Below the pieces are notes generated by a model. The model ran no database searches. It saw only the letters and a program-made list of their open reading frames with translations, and was not told the origin of the DNA. A stretch of 54,866 nt of DNA from a virus, in IMG/VR virus record IMGVR_UViG_3300043425_000164, positions 1 through 54,866 of that record; one strand, given 5' to 3'. Below, piece by piece: positions 1,357 through 54,862 of this stretch (positions are counted from its first letter, which is position 1; the number at the start of each line of letters is the position of its first letter). A program made the position numbers and the translations under genes.

Positions 1357-4300
1357 TCATAGCTCCGATGTTTGGCGAACAAAACCTTTATTGGCTCTGT
1401 TAGTTGTTACTCCGCCAACTACACCTCTTTCGCGTTTAGCCTGTTCTTGTGGAGCTTTTAGTAATGTTGATAATGGCTGTCTTGTGTAACCATTACGAAC
1501 ACGTGATTGCTGTAGTTTTTCCCAATCTTGTCTTGCTTCCGATAGGGCTGCTCCATCACCTTTTCTATACGCCCGTGCATACACACGTTTGATTTCGCTG
1601 GCCTTATCATTATAGAACTGATCGTACTCAAACTTGGCGCTTTGTAAAAATTGTTTATCAGTGAACTGCTTAGTTGGTAAGCCTAAGCCAACCATAAAGG
1701 CCTCTAAAGTACTGACTTCATCTGGGCTGATAAGTACATCGTCTGTACGTGATGTAACGCCCTCAGTGGCGAACCTATAGCCTTTCATGACTTGGGCTAG
1801 TCCGGTGGGCATCAGCTGCTCAATACCTTTGTAGTAGCTTCCCTGACCCATGAGAGATAGGCCGTCGGCTGCTTTTAAGGTTAGGCCACCAAATGGGCCG
1901 GTCATTAGGGCATACCCTGCCTGAGCCACACCTGCTTTGCTAAAGTCAATGTCTGTATATGGCAGGATTGAAAGCATTTGACCCATACCGATCTTACCCG
2001 ACACATCCACACCCATAGCCGCAGGTACACCCTTAACCAGCAAATCAGCTAAGAAATCATCACCAATCGCCCGGCGCATAGCAAGTTCTGGATTATCTGG
2101 CTCATCTTCGTCACCAAAGACTAGACCATATAGGAAAGATAGGGCCGCAAACCCAGGTAATCCCATTACACCGCCCATAGCTGCGGTATGTCCAATTGTG
2201 AACATCAGGGCGCGGCGCCCGATTTGACGAGTCTGCTCATCTTGTCCGGCAAACGCATCATTAAATAGACGGGCCATTAGGCTTAACTGAATTAGCTGAA
2301 ACTTACGGAACTGAGTAGCTAAACGACCTAAACCCTTACGGCTAATACGAGGAGCATTACCTACGCTATAGTCACCGTGGGTGGTGTAAATAACCTTGTC
2401 AGCATAATCAATAGCATTGTTCTTATTAACCCGAGCCTCTAAACGGTACGCTGCTACAGCGGTTGCCACACGGTTAATGGATTCAATGTCTTGTGCAATA
2501 CCACGCAAATACTCTGTAGCACGGCCAAACTTAGCTAGCTTGGAATCCTCAGTAGACCTCCAACGACCTAAGTCCTGCTCAAGGCTAATGTCGATTCTTC
2601 CGCGATTAACGAGCTCCTCAACAACATCTCTAACATCGGCGGGTAGTTTGTTATAGCTATTCTCATCAAGACCATGCTTACGAATAACGCTAGCAATATC
2701 CGAGTACGCATTAGTAAACTCCTTCCAGGCTTTATCGTAGCCATGCTTAGCGCCAATTACAGGCAACGACATCATGAATGGCTGAGTCATATTCTGTAAG
2801 TAGTAAGCAGGATTGGTCAAAAGCATCCAGACAGAGGTTGTATTCAGTGCTTTATCAATAAACGGCGATGGCTCATAATCCAAGCTCATTACATGCCGCT
2901 TCATAAACTCGTTGTAATACCGGCGACGCTCAGCGCGACCTGGGGTACGGGCATCGGCTTCTGCTTTCATCTGACGCAGACTATCGTAAATCTCATCAGA
3001 GTTTTCCAATGAGGAAATAAAGTGTGCCGTGGCTCGACCCTGAGTAGCAAACGCCCGCATCATATCTTTTTCAGCACCAGCAATCTTACGACGGCGACGC
3101 TCAGACTGGCGAGCAGACTGCTCAGACAGCATTGTTAAATGAAGATCGGATAATAAGCGGTTAATCGCTCGTTGAGATTTGTCAGCAGTATTATCGTCCT
3201 GGGTCTCTTCGACCATATTACGTAGGCGATAGAAAAGTCCCTGTACATCTGCTCCGCCGTAGAGGGCGGTACGGGCTGTGTCTTTTTCAAACGGTTCGAC
3301 GAGCGCATAGTTTGTCTCCTCATCACGAGCAATAGCCTTAGCTTCACCCATTGTTTCTGCAAACTGAACAAAGTAATGATCTTGGTTTTTCTCCATTTCA
3401 CGCAGCTTGCTATTTGCTTCGGCTACTTGGTCAGGAGTTGAGTTGGGGTTATCCCTAATATTTTCTTGGTCTAGATATGCCTGTGAACGACCAACCACTA
3501 CATAGTTACCAAAACGCTTCAGAGGCGCATATGGAGATTTGCTATTTACCCGCATCAAGGTGCGGTACTCAGTCAGCGAATTAGCCTTCTTTTTGGTTAG
3601 CTCTGCCACTTCTTGGGCATCACCAGCTTTTTGCGCTGCAGCAATTAATGCATCGTATTCAGTATTAATGTTACGGATAACTGCATCTTGCATTGCCTTT
3701 AATACCTGCTGACCGTGAGTAAAGACTTCTTTAATTAAATTCTGTGCTGCAGCTGGGAACGCATCAAAACGAGCCTTTAATTCAGGGTCAATCTTAGCGC
3801 CCTTGATATTTGGGTCATACGCCCACTCGCCCTTCATCGTCATATCTTTGAGGAACTGATTAACGCTATTCTCGCCAACACCCTTAACTTGGTCTGGCAG
3901 GGCATCGTATTTCTGCAAGATTTGATCTACCCGACGCTCAAAGCGGGTTTTAACAGCTTGCTGCTCTTTAATTAACTGGACATACTTCTTGGCAGAAGGA
4001 ATAAACTTAGCAGCTAGGTCAGCAAGATCTTCGGTAAATGCAAAATACGGTAAACCTTTCTTAGCGAAGTCGACAATGTTATCTGTGATCTGCTGTAATG
4101 GGCCACGAATTGGCTTGGGTAACTTGGCTACCTGTTGTGCAGTGGCCTCTCTAACTTTATTTAGATTAGCGGATTTACTAATATTTGTACGAATAGATGG
4201 GCTTACTTGTACTCGTAGAGCATCCGCTGCTGTTTTCATGCGACTAAGTACGTCAGCAGGCAAAGCCCCTTTAAACGACCCGACATCGACCCTTGCTACT

Positions 4301-7300
4301 CCGCTTGTATCCCCCATTTTGATGCCGGGCAGATATATCGTATTACCAAGTCTATTAGTGGCTTTATATAATGAATAGTCACCTTCTACCCATACCGGAG
4401 CACCATAATCCGCATTTAATGACCAGGTAGGCCATTTGGTAACATTAGTCTGTTTTCCAAAAGATTGAAAGCGTTTGTTAGCTTCTGCAATGTAAGGAGT
4501 TAGAGACTCTGTAAACATACCTTCTGAAATAGCCATTAAGTTGGCCAGAGCAGAATCAGATCTAACTGGTAGGTTTAGAGCACTAGAGATTAGTTTTACA
4601 AACTTGTCCCAGAAAGTAACTTTTGGTGATACTACAACGCTTGCTAAATATTCTTGGAAGTCTTTATTTGTTAAACCCCATGCCAGCAATTCGTCTGGGT
4701 CAGCTAAAGAATTATTTTCTCTTTGGAAGTACCGTTTTTCAAATTCATTTAGTGTACCGTCTGCGGCACGCTTGTTGTAATACGTTACTATTTCGTTAAA
4801 AAGCTCTCTTAACTGTTTGGCTGCTGAGCTGTCAGGAGCCATTTTTATTTGTCCTTGGGTTACAGCATGGATTAGCTCATGTACTAATGTTTCGTAATTA
4901 GTACCGGCTTTGTCCCCAGTATGGGCACCATTAAGGATAACGTCTATCTTTTGAGCCTGACCTAAACCGGCAGGAGTGTAAATAGATATTCCAGATGCGT
5001 TACCAGTTAGTTGTTTACCTGGATTTGTGAGGCTAAAACTAAATTCAACTCCTAAGCTAGCTAGCTCTTTTAAGCGAGCGTCTATTGCACGTAAAACCGT
5101 GCGCTCGTAGTCGTTTCTTGCTTTCGATAAAGCCCAGTTCATTGCCTCTTGAATTGTTTTACCACGGAGGGCTGCGTCTACTTCTTGAGACTGAGGGTCA
5201 ATTAGTGGATTATTTTCGCTAAAAGATCTTTGAACACTTTGAGCTGGAGTCATCATTTTAGCGAGCTTGACTAGCTCAGTTTGAACATCTTCAGGAGTCC
5301 AGTTTTCTTCGCCAAAACTAATCCAGTCGGCTTGCTGTTCTTCACTCAACTCTGAGAACTTTGGAGCATCAGGAAAATCTTTTATGCCTCTGTTCCATGC
5401 TTGCTCAGCTTGTTCTTCTAGCGTCCTCGCGCTGACTTCTTCATCGGCTTGTTCAGCTTCTGCGGCAGCTTCGTCCCTTTCGGTGTCTTCGCTTGGAACT
5501 CTTTGGCGAGCTTCGGCTTGTTTGCGTACAGATACCCTTTTTGTGCTTCGCTTTTGAACGGCATTATCTTCTCCTTTAGCAACACGAACTTCTTGACGAC
5601 GGTTGATTTCTTTAATAATAGCGTCTAGGTCAGAATCAACAATACGCTCATCAATAGCTAAGTTATTAAGTTCAAAGTCTTTTAGGGCTTCAATACCTTT
5701 TTTCTTAAACTTTTGATACGTTCTGTTGGCAGATGCAGCATCTTCTAATTCAGTAGCACCACTTACTTGTGGGTTAAATACTCGGAATCCAGATGCACCA
5801 CCACCTTCTTTTTCGCTAGTTTCTTCACGACCAAGAGTTTGGTCTTCTTTCTCAGCAACCATAGCTGCTTCTTCAGCCATGCTTGGGCCTGCTTCATCCG
5901 ATACGGCAGCTTCACGAGCCGCAACAGCTTCAAAGTCTAGGTCTTCTTCCGTTAATGCTTGCGCTTCGGTTTCAGTTTCTGCTTTGGCAGTAGACTTAAC
6001 CAATAGGTTATAAACATCGTCTTTCGTATAACCTAAGCGTTTAGCGGCTGCAAAGATTCGAGCGCCCCAAGTTTCTTGGGCTGTTGGTCCAGCGATTTGA
6101 GCAATACGAGCATCTGATACACCGTATTCTTTAGCAATTTCAACAGAAGTTTTTTCTCCTGTCAGATACTCCATAACGATACCGCCATCACGAGTACCAA
6201 AAGCGGAGTTAACAATAGTTCTAACCCGCTCTAATGCTTCAATACGATCATCAGGAATTACTTGCGCTTCTTGCCCAGTACTGGGAACGGCATTACTGAC
6301 CCGACCGGCACTGGGCTCAACCCGTGCTCGTACACTTCCTGGTCCGACATTTTGGACTGTACTCGGGAGTATAAGGTTGCTTCCTGTCCCGATGGGTCGA
6401 ACTTCGTTGGGTCGTACAGGCCCACTGACTCCAGGGCTTGCTTCTGCTGCTCTTCCTTGCTCTGATACTGTTCCCAGCCCGGCAGGACTCGGCACTCGCA
6501 GTTGTTGTCTTTCATTTGTTGCTCCTTTAGTTGTTTCGGATGCTAGTTGCTGAAGGGCTACAAAAGCTGGCGCATCCTTGCCAGTCAAAGCCTTATAAAA
6601 ACTATTAAGCTGGTCAGCCTCTTTTAGTGCTTTTGGACCTTCCAAACTTCCAATCAAAACATCTGCACGCTCGGCAGCATCTGCTTTATCCGCAGAACTA
6701 TCGATACCCCACTCAGATAAAAATTTAACTGCTGCGTTATTTACAGTTTTAGCATTTGACTTTAGGGGTACTTTTACAGCGCCAGAATTAAGAGCAGCGC
6801 CAATAATTGATTTTTGCTCAGGGGTCTTGTCTTGATTTAGAGCATCAAGATCAGCCAAAAACTTAGTAGCATCAGCTTGGGTAAATAAAGTCTTACCTGC
6901 AACGGTATAACGTCCTGCAACTTGAGTAGGTTGAACACCATAGGTAGAAGAGATTTCGTCAAACGCAGCTTGTTGCTCTGCTCGTTGTTGAGCAGCTTGT
7001 TGTTCTGCTTGTGTTTGAGCTACTCTTGCTGCCTCAATTTGAGACTCAATATTTTGTCTAGGATTTAAAACAGGGTTGCTATCAATCTGAGCTTGCACAG
7101 CGGCTACTTCTTGCTCAGTTCTAGTTCTCTGGGGTGGGCCTACTAAGATCTCAGAACTATTAGCATCAATGGCTTTATTGATGGCATTACCATCAGGGGT
7201 GGTCGCTTCGCCGGTGCTTAGGTTTGTAGAACCTGGCAATAAACTTCCGGGAGCAGTAACACGATTTAACGTACCAACAACGGCACCAGTACCACCACCT

Positions 7301-8184
7301 AATAAACCGCCTAATGTAGCCGAACCAATAACACCGGTCATAGGCTGAATACTTGGAGCCATTTCACCAGCGGCAAGATTTGCCGATAACTTGGTAGCAC
7401 CTTCTTCAATAAATTCTGAACCAGCCTCAACACCGGTTGTGCGTAAAATGCTCTTTGTACCAGCAGCAAATGCTTTATCAGCACCAACTAAACCAGAAGC
7501 GGCACCAATAACAAAAGGAAGTGGCGTAGCTTTTCTAGCAGCATCAGTCGCCATTTTTTCACGCTGTTCAATTGGTAAGTCCTGTAGTTCAGGAGCATTC
7601 ATTACCATTTGATACGCATCACCAGCAGCATCACCACCAGCTAGCACAGCACCAGCAGCAGAACCACCGGTTAAACCGGCACGGGCAACACCACGCTCGG
7701 TAAGACCGAGGGCACCACCTATCATCTTTCCGCCCTTAATTGCTGCACCAGGACCAACAAAGCTACCAATAGCTTGCGACGCAGCAAGCATAGGATTTTC
7801 TCTTACGTATTTAAAAGCTCCGCCAGCTTGTTCAGCTAGGCTCTCAGACTGCATAGAACGACCGAGTTGGAACTTAGCTTCGGCAGCTTCTAAAGATTGT
7901 TTCTTTTCACCTTCTTCAATAAAACGACCAATAGCAGCAGAAGCCTCTGTGCCGGGCTTTACTATATCTAGGGCTGCTTTAGGAAGGGATGCGACAGCGT
8001 TTGCAAACTCAATAGCGTAATCGTTTGCCGCACCAAATATGCCTCGTTTTTCAGTTACACCAAGATAGCCCGCTACTTCTTTCGGAGATAGACCAGTAAG
8101 TTCGACCCCTTTATCTAGGATCTCTCTATCACTTAGGTCTTTAGCCCACGGTGCTGCTTGGCGAATTTCGTCAAACAAAGACAT
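1357..8184 (-). CDS. Giant virion protein with metallopeptidase motif, probable ejection protein
   Basis: A 2275-residue protein, the largest in the genome. It lies directly after two internal-virion-type genes, where podoviruses encode DNA-ejection proteins. Residues about 125-310 are Gly/Ala-rich with hydrophobic stretches, and another hydrophobic segment lies near 2000-2025, consistent with membrane insertion. The zinc motif HELIHA starts at residue 1102. The middle is charged, with low-complexity Glu/Ala segments. It resembles large multi-domain phage polyvalent proteins. An internal-virion role is inferred from position, size and composition. No transglycosylase motif was identified. Confidence 0.85.
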   Translation of the reverse strand: MSLFDEIRQAAPWAKDLSDREILDKGVELTGLSPKEVAGYLGVTEKRGIFGAANDYAIEFANAVASLPKAALDIVKPGTEASAAIGRFIEEGEKKQSLEAAEAKFQLGRSMQSESLAEQAGGAFKYVRENPMLAASQAIGSFVGPGAAIKGGKMIGGALGLTERGVARAGLTGGSAAGAVLAGGDAAGDAYQMVMNAPELQDLPIEQREKMATDAARKATPLPFVIGAASGLVGADKAFAAGTKSILRTTGVEAGSEFIEEGATKLSANLAAGEMAPSIQPMTGVIGSATLGGLLGGGTGAVVGTLNRVTAPGSLLPGSTNLSTGEATTPDGNAINKAIDANSSEILVGPPQRTRTEQEVAAVQAQIDSNPVLNPRQNIESQIEAARVAQTQAEQQAAQQRAEQQAAFDEISSTYGVQPTQVAGRYTVAGKTLFTQADATKFLADLDALNQDKTPEQKSIIGAALNSGAVKVPLKSNAKTVNNAAVKFLSEWGIDSSADKADAAERADVLIGSLEGPKALKEADQLNSFYKALTGKDAPAFVALQQLASETTKGATNERQQLRVPSPAGLGTVSEQGRAAEASPGVSGPVRPNEVRPIGTGSNLILPSTVQNVGPGSVRARVEPSAGRVSNAVPSTGQEAQVIPDDRIEALERVRTIVNSAFGTRDGGIVMEYLTGEKTSVEIAKEYGVSDARIAQIAGPTAQETWGARIFAAAKRLGYTKDDVYNLLVKSTAKAETETEAQALTEEDLDFEAVAAREAAVSDEAGPSMAEEAAMVAEKEDQTLGREETSEKEGGGASGFRVFNPQVSGATELEDAASANRTYQKFKKKGIEALKDFELNNLAIDERIVDSDLDAIIKEINRRQEVRVAKGEDNAVQKRSTKRVSVRKQAEARQRVPSEDTERDEAAAEAEQADEEVSARTLEEQAEQAWNRGIKDFPDAPKFSELSEEQQADWISFGEENWTPEDVQTELVKLAKMMTPAQSVQRSFSENNPLIDPQSQEVDAALRGKTIQEAMNWALSKARNDYERTVLRAIDARLKELASLGVEFSFSLTNPGKQLTGNASGISIYTPAGLGQAQKIDVILNGAHTGDKAGTNYETLVHELIHAVTQGQIKMAPDSSAAKQLRELFNEIVTYYNKRAADGTLNEFEKRYFQRENNSLADPDELLAWGLTNKDFQEYLASVVVSPKVTFWDKFVKLISSALNLPVRSDSALANLMAISEGMFTESLTPYIAEANKRFQSFGKQTNVTKWPTWSLNADYGAPVWVEGDYSLYKATNRLGNTIYLPGIKMGDTSGVARVDVGSFKGALPADVLSRMKTAADALRVQVSPSIRTNISKSANLNKVREATAQQVAKLPKPIRGPLQQITDNIVDFAKKGLPYFAFTEDLADLAAKFIPSAKKYVQLIKEQQAVKTRFERRVDQILQKYDALPDQVKGVGENSVNQFLKDMTMKGEWAYDPNIKGAKIDPELKARFDAFPAAAQNLIKEVFTHGQQVLKAMQDAVIRNINTEYDALIAAAQKAGDAQEVAELTKKKANSLTEYRTLMRVNSKSPYAPLKRFGNYVVVGRSQAYLDQENIRDNPNSTPDQVAEANSKLREMEKNQDHYFVQFAETMGEAKAIARDEETNYALVEPFEKDTARTALYGGADVQGLFYRLRNMVEETQDDNTADKSQRAINRLLSDLHLTMLSEQSARQSERRRRKIAGAEKDMMRAFATQGRATAHFISSLENSDEIYDSLRQMKAEADARTPGRAERRRYYNEFMKRHVMSLDYEPSPFIDKALNTTSVWMLLTNPAYYLQNMTQPFMMSLPVIGAKHGYDKAWKEFTNAYSDIASVIRKHGLDENSYNKLPADVRDVVEELVNRGRIDISLEQDLGRWRSTEDSKLAKFGRATEYLRGIAQDIESINRVATAVAAYRLEARVNKNNAIDYADKVIYTTHGDYSVGNAPRISRKGLGRLATQFRKFQLIQLSLMARLFNDAFAGQDEQTRQIGRRALMFTIGHTAAMGGVMGLPGFAALSFLYGLVFGDEDEPDNPELAMRRAIGDDFLADLLVKGVPAAMGVDVSGKIGMGQMLSILPYTDIDFSKAGVAQAGYALMTGPFGGLTLKAADGLSLMGQGSYYKGIEQLMPTGLAQVMKGYRFATEGVTSRTDDVLISPDEVSTLEAFMVGLGLPTKQFTDKQFLQSAKFEYDQFYNDKASEIKRVYARAYRKGDGAALSEARQDWEKLQQSRVRNGYTRQPLSTLLKAPQEQAKRERGVVGGVTTNRANKGFVRQTSEL

Positions 8185-8198
8185 ATTGTATTAATCCT

Positions 8199-9518
8199 TT
8201 ACGGTGCTGCGATGGTTCCGATATTTCTATCTGTATCGTCTGGTATTGCCTTAGGTGGTAATTTTGCCCGAGTTTGTGGAGCTCCGCCAGGGGGATTACC
8301 GTTAAAGTTCCTAAATGCATCTACTACAGGGTTAGCCGCTCCACCGGGGAGTCCTGTTGCCGGTAAAAAATTACCTGGACGCTTTGGATCAGGGATAAAG
8401 ATCTGATTACCAATAGTTACCGATCCGTCTGGATTAACTGTAGGAGCTTTAGTATCAGGAGCTTTAAGAACTAGACCAATAGCTTGTTTTCTAGCCTCTG
8501 GTAGGGTATATGGCTTACCTGTTTTAGGATTATTTTCTCCGGACTCAACAAGTAATTCAGCGTATTCTTCGGCACGAGCTTTTGCACTATCAGCTTTTGT
8601 TCTGCCACCGCTGCGAAGATAAGCACCATAATCTTGATAATATTGGCCTTTATCTTCAGCTTCTTTTTCTTTAATCTTAAGTTGACGCTCACCTTGCATA
8701 TAAGCAATAACTTTATCAGGCGAACCTAGCAGGCTTACAGACTCATTCATAAAGCGGCCCATAGCAGCTTCGGATAATTTATCCACTGCCATATTTAAAT
8801 CGCTAATGGTTTCTAATACATCGCCCTTGGGGCCAAGAACTTGAATGCGGCTACCAATACCGTTCTTACCCTCTACGAACTTGATGTTTTTCATGCCGTT
8901 TTTAGAAGCGACATCGTAGACACCTTTTAGACCAAATGAATCGGCTGCTCCTCTAATAGAGGCTAAGTCATCGTTTAGTTTCTCTTGCTTCTTAAAGAAC
9001 TTGTCTTCGTTTTCTGATTGACGAACTAGCTGTTTTAGCTGAATAGCTTCTACTGTACCTTTACGGCTAATCTGACCGGCTGCTTTTACATAGTCTTCCA
9101 TGCCTTGAGCTTTAGTAAACTCAGTTGGTTTCATTTCAGGAAGGGCAGCTTTACTAGCAGGGATATCACCTTGGCGAACAGCGTTTTCACGCATAGCACC
9201 AGCAGCAGCTTCAGCAGATGCACGCTCAAAGGCTTGATCTTCGGCAGTATTCCCAGGTAAGGCACCTTGATTAGAAAGCATCTGAGCTTGTTGCGTACCA
9301 ATTTCACTACCTGTTTTAAGGGCTTGGGTATAGTCATCAGATTGTCCGACACGAGCTTGTGATTGACGCCATGCTTGATCAAGGGCTTCTTTTTCAGCAA
9401 TTTCTTTGCGTAACTGCTCACGCTGCATTGCACGAAGTTGTTCTTCGCCTAAACGCTCATATGTACTAATTCCGGTGTTTACTGCTGCGCCAAGGGCTGC
9501 ACCTAAGTTAATCGCCAT
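8199..9518 (-). CDS. Probable internal virion protein
   Basis: A 439-residue protein beginning with a hydrophobic Ala/Gly-rich segment (INLGAALGAAVNTGIS), followed by a long charged, Gln/Glu/Lys-rich helical body. The tail is Pro/Gly-rich. An AAGGAAT ribosome site precedes the ATG. Its place between the 319-residue internal protein and the 2275-residue protein matches the three-gene ejection cluster of podoviruses. Assignment rests on context and composition, not on a recognised domain. Confidence 0.75.
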   Translation of the reverse strand: MAINLGAALGAAVNTGISTYERLGEEQLRAMQREQLRKEIAEKEALDQAWRQSQARVGQSDDYTQALKTGSEIGTQQAQMLSNQGALPGNTAEDQAFERASAEAAAGAMRENAVRQGDIPASKAALPEMKPTEFTKAQGMEDYVKAAGQISRKGTVEAIQLKQLVRQSENEDKFFKKQEKLNDDLASIRGAADSFGLKGVYDVASKNGMKNIKFVEGKNGIGSRIQVLGPKGDVLETISDLNMAVDKLSEAAMGRFMNESVSLLGSPDKVIAYMQGERQLKIKEKEAEDKGQYYQDYGAYLRSGGRTKADSAKARAEEYAELLVESGENNPKTGKPYTLPEARKQAIGLVLKAPDTKAPTVNPDGSVTIGNQIFIPDPKRPGNFLPATGLPGGAANPVVDAFRNFNGNPPGGAPQTRAKLPPKAIPDDTDRNIGTIAAP

Positions 9519-27174: not shown

Positions 27175-28575
27175 CTAGTCCCAAACAAAAGTTGTTTTTT
27201 CTACGGGTCTAGCTTTCCGGGTTAACACATCCCCTGTAATGTTGCCATCTGCATGCAAACACGCGTACTGAAATGCGTCCGCAATGTGAGAGTAACTGTT
27301 TTTCTCGGGTTTGTCATCTGTATCCCCGTTATTTTTAATTTTATACCGATACCCACCGCGTAGTGCATTTATGAGCTCTCGGCAGTCTGGATCGATCAAC
27401 ATCGCTGCTCTACCATCCACGATACGCGTCAAAAGCGCATCAACCGCAGATAACCGAGCAACGATACTGTTTGATTTTGCTGGAATTACTCTAAAACCTT
27501 CCGCTTTCAAAATATCAAACACTGACCGCTCATCTGTCTGAGCTCTCTGCTGTCCTGCCGGGTCACCAATAATCAGGCAAGGCATACCCGGAAATTTATT
27601 CGCAAGCACCGGTTTAAGCTTCTCTCTTACAAATCTTAACGTTCCCATACCCTCAGACGTTAGACAGGCATATGTCAAAAATCGCCCCTGAGGATCGACC
27701 TGACTAATCGTAGCAGCTGGTGTCAAACCAAAATCCATCCCAATAATCAACGGGTTAGTCGACAGTTTGATGTAATTCAGTGACTTTTCAGCCACATGTA
27801 AGTCCCGATCGAAAGCCCTAAAAACAGGCTGACCTGATAACGATTTACCAAATTTTGCGTTGATATAAACATCAACCCAGTCTTCAGACTTGCCCTCTGC
27901 CAAATTCTCATAGTACCCTTCCGGTAAAAACTCAAGCCAATCAGCCTCTTGGGACAATCCGCTAGGCTGAAAGTAACACTCTGCGTTATCCGGTGGATCC
28001 GATAAGTACTGCTCCCAGAACGTATCCATGTCTGGTGGGTTGGTCATCCCCCAGATGTGAGCATTAGACTTACCAGAATCATCGACGCAACCCATGCCAT
28101 TGTCCAGCTTAGAAGGGAAACGACCAAGACGCCCCTGAAGAGCGTTAAAGATGTCTGGGTTAATTTCTCGAAATTCGTCCAAGATACCAAAGCTAGCTTG
28201 TAAAGACAGCAAGCGCCGAACGTCATTAGAATCATCGAGGCCACGAAATAAAATTTCACATTCAACATCGTCGAACCTTAAAATAAATTTATATTCGGAC
28301 TTGAGATACGTCCCCGCTTGGCCGTCCGGATACCAGCGTAGTACGTCAGGGATGGATGTATCTCGCAGCTGCTCTCGCGTATTACGCACCCATATGGCTC
28401 GACTTCGACGTATGCCATCTTTACATTTCGCCATCTTCTTGGCGTGGTAGGCAATTTTCATTATGCCCGCCGTGGTTTTGGTACTACCCACTGGCCCCAC
28501 GATCAACGAAATAAACGCATCGGAAGTCAAAAATCCTTTTACGGACTCGGGTGGTGTGTACTGTAAATTACTCAT
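27175..28575 (-). CDS. terL: Terminase large subunit
   Basis: A 466-residue packaging ATPase/nuclease. Walker A-like GPVGSTKTT (27-35) and Walker B ILDEFREI (131-138) are clear. The nuclease half shows IIGMDFGLTPAATIS, CLIIGDPAG and a late HIADAFQYACLH, giving the expected acidic residues. It translocates DNA through the portal and cuts it. The start overlaps the small-terminase stop by 8 bases. A lysine-containing GPVGSTK loop, rather than the usual GKT/S form, is common in this family. Confidence 0.9.
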   Translation of the reverse strand: MSNLQYTPPESVKGFLTSDAFISLIVGPVGSTKTTAGIMKIAYHAKKMAKCKDGIRRSRAIWVRNTREQLRDTSIPDVLRWYPDGQAGTYLKSEYKFILRFDDVECEILFRGLDDSNDVRRLLSLQASFGILDEFREINPDIFNALQGRLGRFPSKLDNGMGCVDDSGKSNAHIWGMTNPPDMDTFWEQYLSDPPDNAECYFQPSGLSQEADWLEFLPEGYYENLAEGKSEDWVDVYINAKFGKSLSGQPVFRAFDRDLHVAEKSLNYIKLSTNPLIIGMDFGLTPAATISQVDPQGRFLTYACLTSEGMGTLRFVREKLKPVLANKFPGMPCLIIGDPAGQQRAQTDERSVFDILKAEGFRVIPAKSNSIVARLSAVDALLTRIVDGRAAMLIDPDCRELINALRGGYRYKIKNNGDTDDKPEKNSYSHIADAFQYACLHADGNITGDVLTRKARPVEKTTFVWD

Positions 28576-29852: not shown

Positions 29853-29881
29853 AATGTAATGTTTTGTATACACATTGTCAA
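29853..29881 (-). promoter_or_regulatory. Sigma-70-like promoter for the leftward unit
   Basis: On the minus strand: -35 TTGACA (29876-29881, 6 of 6), 17-base spacer, -10 TACATT (29853-29858, 4 of 6). The start of transcription would fall near 29846, at the HNH start codon, so this mRNA may be leaderless. The spacer includes TGTATAC. Confidence 0.6.
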
Positions 29882-30084
29882 CATGGGATAAACCCTAGGT
29901 GTGGGCGCGGATTTGATGAGCTACTAGCTGTAGGTATGAAGGCAGAAAAAATCCCTACTTGTCATATCCTCCGATGTCTGCCTGACCGCCCACTGGGAGT
30001 GTACTTCAGTGTTGTAAAAAAGTGACAGTAAAGCTACATAAACGTTGCCTTAAGTGGGTTAATGCTTCTTTTATGAATCATTAT

Positions 30085-30103
30085 CTATACAACGTGTGTA
30101 TAG
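30085..30103. promoter_or_regulatory. 19-base dyad, candidate operator
   Basis: CTATACA-ACGTG-TGTATAG is a perfect 7+7 inverted repeat with a 5-base centre. TGTATA also occurs in spacers of two leftward promoters (24964-24992 and 29853-29881). It lies before the candidate non-coding RNA, where it could act as a control site for rightward transcription. Confidence 0.5.
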
Positions 30104-30145
30104 TCATATTTTTACCGGGCGCATTACGGCTAATACGTAAGCATG

Positions 30146-30600
30146 GCCCCCCACCCCCACCCCCTCTGGTCAGGGGGGTATCCCCTTAGCCCTCTGCCTA
30201 TGGTGTAGGTCGAGGCATTTAGTCCTCTGCCTATATCGCAGAGCACCGCTACGGGTTGATCTCTACCTGAGTATCCTTGAGATTATGGCGAGTAGGTTGT
30301 CCGTGCTGAATGTTGAGTCATTCTGATACTTAGTAGGCACAATGGATTTGCTGAAACCATGCGGGATAGTATCCGTGTAAAAGTGAGCAGAATACCGCTT
30401 ACACACCTGAGCGAACCGCACTTGACCTAGATGTCAAGATTTGGGTAGATTACCTGAACCGCAGTGTTCGAGTAATAGCGTATCTCCCCAAAGTGTCGAA
30501 AACAATGGCAGACACAGGCACAGGGTTATGAGAATTCCTACCCTTGAGTGCAAAGGTATTAGGTCAAACCTCGATACCCCATAACACTCAAGGGGTTTTT
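30146..30600 (+). ncRNA. Candidate large structured non-coding RNA
   Basis: An ORF-free stretch of about 450 bases with a chain of hairpins: CTCTGC/GCAGAG (30225-30243), TGATCTC/GAGATTA (30257-30285, one G-U), GTGC/GCAC (30303-30340), GGAT/ATCC (30364-30374), GTGTAA/TTACAC (30375-30404), CTTGAC/GTCAAG (30421-30438), GGTA/TACC (30444-30454), GAAC/GTTC (30456-30469). It ends in an intrinsic terminator, as an independent RNA would. CCTCTGCCTA occurs twice (30190-30199, 30224-30233). I could not match it to a known RNA class; ends are approximate. It could instead be a control region or origin. Confidence 0.4.
30541..30600 (+). terminator. Strong terminator with nested stems
   Basis: Perfect 10-pair stem CCCTTGAGTG (30541-30550) with CACTCAAGGG (30585-30594), enclosing a second stem GGTAT/ATACC (30555-30559 with 30574-30578) and an inner GGT/ACC, followed by five T at 30596-30600. 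It ends transcription arriving from the left, 60 bases before the first rightward gene. Confidence 0.85.
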
Positions 30601-30630
30601 ATCAAGTGCATTAGCAATAGTGTGCTTGAT
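30601..30630 (+). promoter_or_regulatory. Hairpin in the leader of the first rightward gene
   Basis: ATCAAGTGCA (30601-30610) can pair with TGTGCTTGAT (30621-30630): ten pairs, two of them G-U, with a 10-base loop. It directly follows the terminator and precedes the TAACTTACT motif and ribosome site. It may stabilise the mRNA or tune translation. Confidence 0.55.
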
Positions 30631-30636
30631 TCTGAC

Positions 30637-30645
30637 TAACTTACT
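30637..30645 (+). promoter_or_regulatory. TAACTTACT leader motif, copy 1
   Basis: The nine-base motif lies 14 bases before the ATG at 30660, just upstream of the AGGAAAA ribosome site. Identical copies precede genes at 34175, 35959 and 40970. Confidence 0.5.
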
Positions 30646-30659
30646 TAACAGGAAAAATC

Positions 30660-31172
30660 ATGGCTCTATTAAATGCTAAAGACCTCGAATCAAAAATTGC
30701 ACAAATTGGCAAAACCGCTGGTGAGTTGCAGTCTGAGATTCAAATCGCCGCAGTAAATGCAATTGGTTATTCAATCGAGCATGGTGATATTCGCTACGGG
30801 CAGAAGTTGTTTGATGTATTGCCTAGCGGTGTTCGTCGTGCTAGTTTGGTAGCTTTCCTCGAAAAGCATGGCAATTTTGCCTACCTCAAAGAGGACAAGA
30901 AGTTTGCGTTTTACAAGGCTCAGGATTCCTTTGACGAAGTCGCTTTATTGGCTACATCATGGGCTTCCGCTAAGACTGAGAACATCACATCTGAGTATGA
31001 TGTGCAGAAGATGTTTGACAGCCTCATGAAACGCATCGAGTCCGCTATCAAGAAGTCTGGTGATGGCTCGGTTAAGGTTCTCAATACACCCCTGTATGAC
31101 TACCTTCAAGAAGCACAAGACCGCTTCAATGCCGAGCGTGAGTTCGTGCAACCCGAAGTCAAAGTAGCGTAA
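30660..31172 (+). CDS. First rightward (early) protein, unknown function
   Basis: A 170-residue, helical, charged protein (SEIQIAAVNAIGYSIEHGDI; then VRRASLVAFLEKHGNFAYL). I recall similar proteins among early genes of podoviruses, without a known role. It has its own leader with a terminator upstream, so it is likely separately controlled and strongly expressed soon after infection. No catalytic motif seen. Confidence 0.8.
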   Translation: MALLNAKDLESKIAQIGKTAGELQSEIQIAAVNAIGYSIEHGDIRYGQKLFDVLPSGVRRASLVAFLEKHGNFAYLKEDKKFAFYKAQDSFDEVALLATSWASAKTENITSEYDVQKMFDSLMKRIESAIKKSGDGSVKVLNTPLYDYLQEAQDRFNAEREFVQPEVKVA

Positions 31173-51681: not shown

Positions 51682-54615
51682 ATGAATACCCTTGAGTTTT
51701 TCAAGGCGATATTGCCCGCCGAGGGGGTTTACTTCCTTGCAATATTTAAGCCAAATTCAAAGGCACCTACCCACAAGGCTTACGAAAGTCTTGAGGATAT
51801 GGCTCATGCCGTGGCTGACATTGAGCAGAAGAACCCCACTTGGACTATCTACCATGCTTGCAGTTCCTATAAGCAGGCTAGTGTAGAAGTAGATGGTAAG
51901 AAGAAATATCGTGTAAAAGAAAACTGGGATTCTGCTAAAGCATTTTGGTGCGACATTGATTGCGGTGAAGATAAAGCCGAAGAAGGTAAAGGCTATGCAA
52001 CCAAAAGACTAGCGGCAGAAGCATTAGTTAAGTTTTGTAAAGACACAGGTTTTCCAACCCCGATGTTTATTGACTCGGGTAACGGAGTTCATTGCTATTG
52101 GCCTTTGGCTAAACCTATTCCTGCATCAGCATGGCAGGCTATGGCTAGCGAGATCAAGGCTATCTTTGACGCACATGGACTTTTAGTAGACCCATCAAGA
52201 ACAGCAGACTTTGCATCGATTCTTAGACCAGTCGGTTCTTTCCACAAGAAAGGCGATCCTAAAGAAGTTATATGTAAAAAGACTGTAGCGGATATTAAAC
52301 CGAGTGATTTGCTTGCCAAAATCAAAGAGTTATCTGTAACTCCAAAGAAAGAACCTGTTTATCAGGCGGCGGATAACGACGACTTAATTAGTCATGCCCC
52401 AGTAAACCTACCGTCTAGTGCTATTGAGATTGCAAACAAATGTAATCAAGTTGCGCAGATGCGGGATACAAAAGGCAATGTAGATTATGAGCATTGGAGG
52501 GGTGTAATCGGTATTATCAAGCACTGTACCGAGGGTGCTTATTTGGCTCACGAGTGGAGTTCAGGTCACCCACAATATAGTTACGATGATACACAGACTA
52601 AGTTTGATACTTGGAATACACCACCTACACTATGCAAACGCTTTAGCGAAGTAAACCCAAAGGGCTGTGAAGGCTGTCCACACAGCGGCAAGATTAGCAC
52701 TCCAATGGTTTTAGGACGTGTTGTCGAGCAACAGAAGGATTTAGTTGTTGAAGCCACTGTCGACGGTAAGACGATGGAGTTCCAAATACCTGAGTTCCCT
52801 GAGAACTTTAAGTATGAGAATGGTCAGATGGTTCGCTACATGCAGGATAAAGACGAAATCTGGCATGCCTTTCCGTTTGCACCTAACTTGTTTTACCCAA
52901 TCCACCGTATTAAAAAGGAAGACGGGACATTTAGTCTTGGCATTCGTTTGCACTTACCTGATAACAGAACTCGGGAATTTGCAATTGACACCAAGTTGCT
53001 AGCGTCTTCTCAAAAGCTACTTGACGGTTTGGGTGACTACGAGCTTTTTGCATTAACCACAAAAGACGCATCAAACCATATGACTGCTTATCTACGACAC
53101 TACTTAGAAAAGTTAATGGCTGAAGCTGAAGAGCTAAACACCATGACTTCGTTTGGCTGGCGTGAGGACTTACAGTCTTTCTTAATCGGTGATCGTTTGT
53201 ATCATCGTGACGGAACGATTCGTAAGGTACTTACCGGTGGCTACGCTAAAGACAAGGAATCTTCGTTTCCGCCTCCAAGGGGTACAACCCAGGGTTATGC
53301 CAAGGCATTGAACTTTTTATATAACAGATCGGGTTTAGAGTATCGCCAGTATGCGATTGCTTCGGGCTTCGGTTCTATCCTGACACCATTCGGGGATTCT
53401 TTATATAAAGGTTTGCTGTTTGCCATTACTGGTGCAGGTACATCAAGAGGTAAGACCACTTTATGCCGAGCCGCTTTGTATGCGTTTGGTGATGCGGACA
53501 AGATGACAATTAAGACCGAGAAAGGTGCTACATTAAATGCACGTAATGCTCGGATGGGAACATACAACAATATCCCGTTCTTATTTGACGAGTTGACCCA
53601 CATTGATGCAGAAGAGTTTTCCCAGCTTGCCTATACCGTATCGTTAGGTGAAGAGAAGGATCGCTTGACTGTAACCCGTGGCAATAGCGGAACCCGTATG
53701 GCGGCATCAAGTACATGGGCTATGAGTCCTTACGTTACTGCAAATACTGATCTGCATTCGATTCTTGCAAGCCGAGGCGACAGCCAAGCGGAAGCGGTGC
53801 GTCTAATTCAGATTCGTATCGACCAGTATCAAATGAGCGACCTAAAAGGTAGCGAAGTCACCGCAGCCATGAAACAGATGGAACTGAATATGGGTGCAGC
53901 GGGCGAGGAGTACATTAAATACGTCGTGACTCATATTGAGGAAGTTCTTGAACTCATGGCAAAGTGGGGCAAGCGTATTGAAAAAGACATCCCTGACCTG
54001 AAGTATCGCTTCTATCGTGCTCATGCAGTATGTTCAATGGCTGCGATGGAGATTACTAATCAACTTCATATCACCGAGTTTGATTTAGAAAAGCTCTATA
54101 CATTTGCCGTCGAACTGTTCCACGAGCTAGCCGAGGTTGTTACCGAGAAAAATACCATCAGTCCTGAAGAAGCTCTCAACCGTATGGTCACGGATTTATC
54201 TCCACGGGTTATTACGACTGTGGAATACCGAGATGCGCGTGACGGTCGGGGTCCTGAGGATGTAAGGTACAACAGTAACCATGCACCAGTTGGGCGTTAT
54301 ATTACTGGTAGTGCAAACAGCAAAGACAATCCATTAGCAGGTAAGTTGTTCTTGTGCCGCAAGGATGTACTTGAGTGGTGTGACAAACAGCGTGTTGATT
54401 CTAAGAACATGCTAGCTTATGCGCATCAGGCAGGTTTACTGATTGAGTGGAAAGACAAATTCACTATCGGAAAAGGAACTAAGATAACTACAGGAAACAC
54501 ACGTTGTATAGTTCTTGACTACGATAAGATGCAATCCGTAAGCGCAGAAGCTCCAAAACTTACTGTACACACATTAAAGCCAGTACAGTCTGGTAACACA
54601 GCTGTAAATAATTAG
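51682..54615 (+). CDS. Primase-helicase (AEP primase plus SF3-like/DUF927 ATPase)
   Basis: A 977-residue replication protein. N-terminal PrimPol-type primase: FWCDIDCG (D-x-D, near 88-95), SGNGVHCYWPL (131-141) and ADFASILRPVGSFHKK. The middle carries Cys-rich CEGCPHSG. The C-terminal ATPase has Walker A GAGTSRGKTT (583-592), FLFDELTHID (Walker B) and TANTDLHSIL. This matches a DUF927-like helicase fused to an AEP primase. It should start and unwind DNA for the family A polymerase. Confidence 0.9.
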   Translation: MNTLEFFKAILPAEGVYFLAIFKPNSKAPTHKAYESLEDMAHAVADIEQKNPTWTIYHACSSYKQASVEVDGKKKYRVKENWDSAKAFWCDIDCGEDKAEEGKGYATKRLAAEALVKFCKDTGFPTPMFIDSGNGVHCYWPLAKPIPASAWQAMASEIKAIFDAHGLLVDPSRTADFASILRPVGSFHKKGDPKEVICKKTVADIKPSDLLAKIKELSVTPKKEPVYQAADNDDLISHAPVNLPSSAIEIANKCNQVAQMRDTKGNVDYEHWRGVIGIIKHCTEGAYLAHEWSSGHPQYSYDDTQTKFDTWNTPPTLCKRFSEVNPKGCEGCPHSGKISTPMVLGRVVEQQKDLVVEATVDGKTMEFQIPEFPENFKYENGQMVRYMQDKDEIWHAFPFAPNLFYPIHRIKKEDGTFSLGIRLHLPDNRTREFAIDTKLLASSQKLLDGLGDYELFALTTKDASNHMTAYLRHYLEKLMAEAEELNTMTSFGWREDLQSFLIGDRLYHRDGTIRKVLTGGYAKDKESSFPPPRGTTQGYAKALNFLYNRSGLEYRQYAIASGFGSILTPFGDSLYKGLLFAITGAGTSRGKTTLCRAALYAFGDADKMTIKTEKGATLNARNARMGTYNNIPFLFDELTHIDAEEFSQLAYTVSLGEEKDRLTVTRGNSGTRMAASSTWAMSPYVTANTDLHSILASRGDSQAEAVRLIQIRIDQYQMSDLKGSEVTAAMKQMELNMGAAGEEYIKYVVTHIEEVLELMAKWGKRIEKDIPDLKYRFYRAHAVCSMAAMEITNQLHITEFDLEKLYTFAVELFHELAEVVTEKNTISPEEALNRMVTDLSPRVITTVEYRDARDGRGPEDVRYNSNHAPVGRYITGSANSKDNPLAGKLFLCRKDVLEWCDKQRVDSKNMLAYAHQAGLLIEWKDKFTIGKGTKITTGNTRCIVLDYDKMQSVSAEAPKLTVHTLKPVQSGNTAVNN

Positions 54616-54695: not shown

Positions 54696-54818
54696 TTAAT
54701 ATTCGATGTATATTCGAAGTATTCCTAGGTCAAACACAACGAATCTTTCGTAATCTTCAGTCTCGACCATTTCAAATCCAAACATTACACCTTTAATTAA
54801 ATATAGATTAATAGACAT
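54696..54818 (-). CDS. 40-residue protein, last gene of the leftward unit
   Basis: ATG 54818, AGGATC upstream, TAA at 54696-54698. Begins MSINLYLIKGVMFGFEMVET and ends DLGILRIYIEY; mixed beta-rich. The left copy at 1-82 is truncated. It lies just before the shared terminator. Function unknown; coding supported by ribosome site and location. Confidence 0.6.
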   Translation of the reverse strand: MSINLYLIKGVMFGFEMVETEDYERFVVFDLGILRIYIEY

Positions 54819-54862
54819 AATTTGATCCTTTATAGGGCTTCTACGGCTTCAAGGGCTACAAT
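54737..54862. repeat. Terminal direct repeat, right copy
   Basis: Identical to 1-126. After 54862 the last four bases differ from the left copy. Together they allow circularisation of the contig. Confidence 0.95.

Follow-up and report, generated by a model that had tools for sequence, protein, structure and literature searches.

A large structured RNA at the head of the replication operon in a group of related phages

Introduction

What occupies the junction between the two divergent gene units of the virus record IMGVR_UViG_3300043425_000164, and what might it do there? The record, a viral entry, was analysed over its whole 54,866 nt, the stretch referred to hereafter as the window. A direct repeat of 126 bases is found at both ends (1-126 = 54737-54862), so the window is probably a complete genome, circular or terminally redundant. 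Structural and packaging genes (portal, tail fibre, internal virion proteins) make up the leftward unit, which starts at ~29.87 kb, and replication genes (DNA polymerase, helicase, primase) make up the rightward unit, which starts at 30.66 kb. A 2275-aa virion protein encoded on the minus strand (1357-8184) has a DarB-like antirestriction match in its C-terminal part, and a 140-residue part of the same protein matches a virion RNA polymerase profile.

A preliminary description of the letters had proposed a large non-coding RNA between the two units, at 30146-30600, and had pointed to Rfam and to covariation among homologues as the means of checking it. Here we examine this RNA, its relatives and the roles that it might play.

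Results

A structured, untranslated RNA at the divergent junction

A structured RNA lies on the + strand at the divergent junction between the leftward and rightward units; it is untranslated and stands just ahead of the rightward (replication) operon (Table 1). It is all but certain that the segment 30111-30600 forms a structured non-coding RNA. The preliminary description was right that there is an RNA here but placed its 5' boundary too far in, as the conserved unit begins at ~30086-30111, where a promoter-like motif is found. Its estimate of about 450 bases without an ORF was borne out: the longest start-to-stop ORFs overlapping 30146-30600 have 55 aa on the + strand and 52 aa on the minus strand, and none is gene-sized. 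A conserved ORF, which it had named as evidence against an RNA, was rejected, since no reading frame stays open across the homologues of the region. The many hairpins it listed form a fold better than chance on the + strand (-160.5 kcal/mol, z -4.4; 0 of 100 shuffles equal); the minus strand folds less strongly (z -2.6).

Table 1. Positions in the window of the RNA, its parts and its neighbours
Feature	Position	Strand	Evidence or remark
Structured non-coding RNA, ~490 nt	30111-30600	+	fold z -4.4, homologues, covariation, no Rfam match
Promoter-like motif: imperfect dyad TATACAACGTGTGTATA overlapping -10-like TATAGT	30086-30104	+	conserved block, alignment A1
C-tract cluster, C5-6 repeated	30147-30190	+	alignment, regex survey
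Helix A, AUCUC 30259-30263 / GAGAU 30279-30283	30259-30283	+	7 haplotypes, 35/35 pairs kept
Helix B, UAUGG 30284-30288 / CCAUG 30357-30361	30284-30361	+	9 haplotypes, 41/45 pairs
Helix D2, GUGAG / CUUAC	30383-30402	+	7 haplotypes, 35/35
Helix E, UUGAC / GUCAA	30422-30437	+	5 haplotypes, 24/25
Helix F, UUUGG / CCAAA	30440-30492	+	14/15 pairs; P 0.33 vs shuffles, weak
Helix G, GUGUC / GACAC	30493-30515	+	7 haplotypes, 32/35
Candidate pseudoknot, UUAUG 30526-30530 / CAUAA 30580-30584	30526-30584	+	invariant in window clade
3' stem CCCUUGAGUG / CACUCAAGGG, intrinsic-terminator-like end	30541-30600	+	covariation
13-bp hairpin AUCAAGUGCAUUA-GCAA-UAGUGUGCUUGAU, between terminator and ribosome-binding site	30601-30630	+	10/13 pairs with double changes
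First gene of rightward unit, 170 aa, phrog_1448, function unknown	30660-31172	+	ATG at 30660
Structured leader with pseudoknot, leftward (HNH nuclease, terminase; late) unit	29901-30003	-	covariation
Terminase	27175-28575		leftward unit

Homologues and their distribution

Besides the window, 14 other viral contigs contain the full-length RNA, and the same 14 were returned by scans with the downstream protein and by DNA patterns for the RNA or the hairpin behind it; a further contig, L022, is cut off inside the RNA. The window and its relatives amount to 12 distinct sequences with 56-97% identity. No match to the RNA, in a cultured phage or otherwise, was obtained by blastn against 50,697 phage records, and none in prokaryote genome contigs searched by protein and by DNA pattern.

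A scan by terminase alignment yielded a wider phage group of 80 loci. The covariance model R1, built on the 3' domain, matched five further phage lineages (L086/L088, 65.7 bits; L094, 55.5; L081, 53.9; L063, 42.1; L068, 28.3). Weaker matches in L104 (E 0.013) and L080 (E 0.07) were accepted only on position and 5' architecture, the model scores being weak. Locus L016 was rejected as a homologue and left out of the counts; its TerL is 55% identical but the covariance model gave only 7.6 bits. An intergenic region of L016 carries, at 8816-8837 on the minus strand, a single and unexplained match to the 22-nt motif TGCAAAGNNNNTAGGTCAAACC. All diverged copies occupy the same divergent junction, on the strand opposite to terminase. 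Among the homologues found, the RNA is always at the leader position and never elsewhere, and its middle domains differ strongly from lineage to lineage.

Covariation of the helices

Compensatory changes went beyond those of shuffled controls. In alignment A4 (MAFFT) of the 3' domain, 97% of the pair cells were standard and double changes were seen in 11 of 37 pairs, a result reached by 0 of 500 shuffles; sliding the partners by 1-3 columns lowered pairing to 33-49%. With the diverged copies added (A8, 15 distinct rows), 95.2% of the pair cells were standard and 28 of 32 pairs had double changes (0/500 shuffles), figures that lean towards structure because the alignment was fitted to the covariance model. 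For the full-length alignment, in which power was low with 12 sequences, our own phylogeny-aware, R-scape-like null gave E 0.025 for two pairs and 0.075 and 0.15 for two others; the top four pairs were all standard in 12 of 12 sequences and fell within helices. The fold is preserved by evolution across related freshwater phages.

In the middle of the RNA, pairing in helices A, B, D2, E and G was kept through 5 to 9 sequence versions, with P values that are optimistic because the helices were picked by eye. Helix B closes a domain that holds a conserved GAGUCA..UCUGAU loop. Pairing in helix F was within the range of the shuffles (P 0.33), and the candidate pseudoknot near the 3' end showed no covariation and is not clear in all distant relatives.

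The 5' part

The -10-like element reads TATAAT or TATATT in the relatives, and the same promoter-like motif is present in distant leaders. The segment 30086-30104 would act as a promoter with a putative start at ~30111. The motif has only one other site in the window, at 54494, with 0.16 matches expected by chance; this imperfect copy (TATACAACGTGTGTTTC, 54494-54510, minus strand) falls within the primase gene, close to where the operon ends.

Three features recur in the leaders: a motif resembling GTGTGTATA together with a -10-like element, a stretch of A or T, and clustered C-tracts, the last being a hallmark of the group's leaders. The C-tracts, C-rich and G-poor, appear to resemble a Rho loading region. 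In the nearest relatives, and not in others, the last C-tract can pair with GGGGGG. The strand opposite the C-tracts at 30147-30165 has a G-quadruplex-like pattern. In KPP25 and Rollin, the regions examined contain neither boxA nor a C-tract cluster.

The 3' stem and the hairpin behind it

The 3' stem has 10 bp (30541-30550 with 30585-30594) and is followed by five T at 30596-30600 (UUUUU); it encloses inner hairpins at 30555-30578 and 30561-30571, with CAAA and CCAUA loops. The window clade has GGGG UUUUU at the end of the stem, and in the window 30541-30600 has the make-up of an intrinsic terminator, a G+C-rich stem and then a U-run. A simple terminator scan misses it because the loop is ~34 nt long and itself folded. 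The preliminary description had seen this stem and its five T, but they do not stand exactly before the gene, as it had put it: 59 nt, with the 13-bp hairpin among them, separate the terminator from the ATG of the first gene.

It had also argued from the terminator that a separate RNA ends here. That argument is weakened by L063, L068 and L080, in which the 3' stem is kept by compensation and the U-run is missing, and by L086, in which the U-run is weak; the stem is therefore conserved for more than termination. Other lineages have additional terminators: in L002, L003 and L005 a second, canonical terminator hairpin follows the 3' stem, giving two in tandem, and a separate terminator is present in L081 and in L094. 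Ending transcription at the 3' end of the RNA thus does matter in some lineages. The 3' stem, CAAA and CCAUA loops included, is a conserved RNA domain to which some lineages add termination.

The 13-bp hairpin is present in nearly all relatives, so it too is transcribed, and its G-U pairs place the RNA on the + strand. A reasonable guess is that it serves in processing or protects the 5' end of the mRNA.

Comparison with known RNAs

As the preliminary description had been unable to place the RNA, we compared it with known families. No covariance model of Rfam 15 reached gathering in the window for the + strand RNA, and those of GOLLD and ROOL found no match up to E 10 over 29874-30700 and none in 14 related loci. 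By these tests the RNA is no member of GOLLD or ROOL. Together with the covariation of the homologues and the lack of a conserved ORF, this supports the earlier proposal of a new, large structured RNA; it matches no known RNA family.

Like GOLLD and ROOL, it is a large, ornate, non-coding phage RNA, in its case with candidate pseudoknots. Many members of GOLLD exceed 800 nt, and GOLLD and ROOL are often near tRNA islands and assemble into RNA nanocages. The window RNA differs in having no match to either model, in its length of ~490 nt and in its fixed place in the early operon; ARAGORN found no tRNA in the window.

boxA in related leaders

Leaders of the wider group carry a known signal. The motif TCTTTAA[AC]A occurs 11 times in the 8.9 kb of 15 wider-group leaders, always on the RNA strand, compared to a single copy in 280 kb outside the leaders in these loci, counting both strands, from which 0.03 copies would be expected in the leaders. 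An rRNA-type boxA was found in 10 of the 15 related leaders sampled (CGCTCTTTAACAATT in L068, for example), suggesting that the boxA-bearing leaders are long RNAs, transcribed but not translated, and that many of them are targets of host Nus factors. No boxA within 2 mismatches occurs in the window RNA, and a regex survey found none in the loci of its own clade.

Most related leaders examined thus resemble the leaders of rRNA operons and boxA-bearing CRISPR leaders in being long untranslated RNAs with a boxA; they differ in that the RNA is phage-encoded, has an unrelated fold and a 3' terminator, and is without boxA in the window clade. A second comparison is with the put RNA of phage HK022 and the nut sites of lambda. 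The put RNA is ~70 nt long; it binds to RNA polymerase and suppresses terminators that lie further on. The window RNA shares with these a place in a phage early leader, a terminator behind it and a possible cis action on polymerase, but is far larger and more complex than put RNA. In the cultured Rhizobium phage RHph_TM27A (L042, 17560-18190), ~640 nt at the divergent junction are unannotated and fold with z -3.7; GCTCTTTGACATCGTG in this stretch looks like an alphaproteobacterial boxA.

A structured leader on the minus strand

A structured leader is found on the leftward unit too, so that each of the two divergent units is headed by a structured RNA. In the minus-strand element, pairing held in 99.5% of the pair cells, and 13 of 20 pairs had double changes. 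A possible ORF on the + strand at 29900-30025 was discarded in favour of this leader. RF02496 (Atu_At1) scored 84 bits at the corresponding site in L099 and in L107; the window copy aligned with it over the full length at 21 bits, below the gathering threshold of 60. The element is a divergent relative of Atu_At1, with the same layout of hairpin, pseudoknot and outer stem; it differs in its score and in being the leader of a phage late operon. The Atu_At1 family is named after a Rhizobiales sRNA, and may be of phage origin.

Discussion

The RNA probably controls the transcription of the early genes or is released at its start. We favour, with a probability of about 0.5, a cis-acting leader of the early operon, made by host RNA polymerase, that would modify the polymerase or shield it and give a discrete RNA as well. 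Host RNA polymerase would transcribe ~490 nt rightward from the promoter near 30086-30104, and the product would be the leader of the early (replication) operon. It would work in cis on the transcribing polymerase, in the relatives through Nus factors bound at boxA and in the window clade perhaps through a structural module at ~30251-30290 that takes the place of boxA, the latter being a guess. The leader would protect the long untranslated transcript from Rho and set the share of polymerases that pass the 3' stem. Those that do not pass would end transcription at the 3' terminator, freeing a discrete RNA, while those that pass would make early mRNA beginning with the 13-bp hairpin. The constant position before differing first genes points to a leader for the operon, not to a switch for one gene, and the fixed position, the boxA of the relatives and the variable 3' terminators favour cis action on polymerase. 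Counted against this are the lack of boxA in the window clade and of the terminator in several relatives; moreover, a boxA needs about a dozen bases, which does not explain a 490-nt fold.

The size of the fold and its discrete end are also compatible with the main rival: a stable, free, trans-acting large RNA, in kind like GOLLD, ROOL or OLE, made from the early promoter. It would be parted from the mRNA by the terminator, or by processing at the 3' stem, with the help of the 13-bp hairpin, and boxA would only ensure full synthesis and correct folding. The size, the many helices, the candidate pseudoknots and the discrete 3' end fit such an RNA, as do the existence of GOLLD and ROOL as large ornate phage RNAs (PMC12286853) and the part of boxA complexes in promoting the maturation of structured rRNA (PMC4807359). 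The ties to the leader position in every homologue found and the strong variation of the middle domains speak against it, and we regard a free RNA as possible but on balance somewhat unlikely.

A riboswitch-like attenuator, in which a ligand or protein would toggle the 3' stem between terminator and antiterminator, seems improbable. Pairing of AGGGU (30522-30526) with ACCCU (30540-30544) is possible in the window and would rival the terminator, but this candidate was rejected as an antiterminator: its sequence is conserved, but 0 pairs have double changes. The attenuator has against it, too, that the U-run is not conserved and that the downstream genes differ between lineages. A DNA element (replication origin, packaging site or operator array) would suit the unique divergent junction, the C-tract cluster and the dyad at 30086 but is very improbable, as DNA sites are not expected to keep standard pairs, with G-U on the + strand, or to show compensatory changes between stem halves as far as ~70 nt from each other, and the boxA of the relatives is an RNA signal.

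The cis-acting leader may be taken one step further. The variable modules of this class of large phage RNA, boxA in some and a pseudoknot-rich domain in others, might all reprogram host polymerase from the early leader, as a processive antitermination device, RNA-only or Nus-assisted, several times the size of put RNA; we hold this extension to be doubtful.

Large structured phage RNAs without known function are an open problem, to which this work adds a new RNA family that recurs in many related contigs at one fixed control point. In boxA the family brings a built-in clue to its partner, the host Nus machinery. As RHph_TM27A is cultured and has a structured stretch at the corresponding place, the question is open to laboratory experiment.
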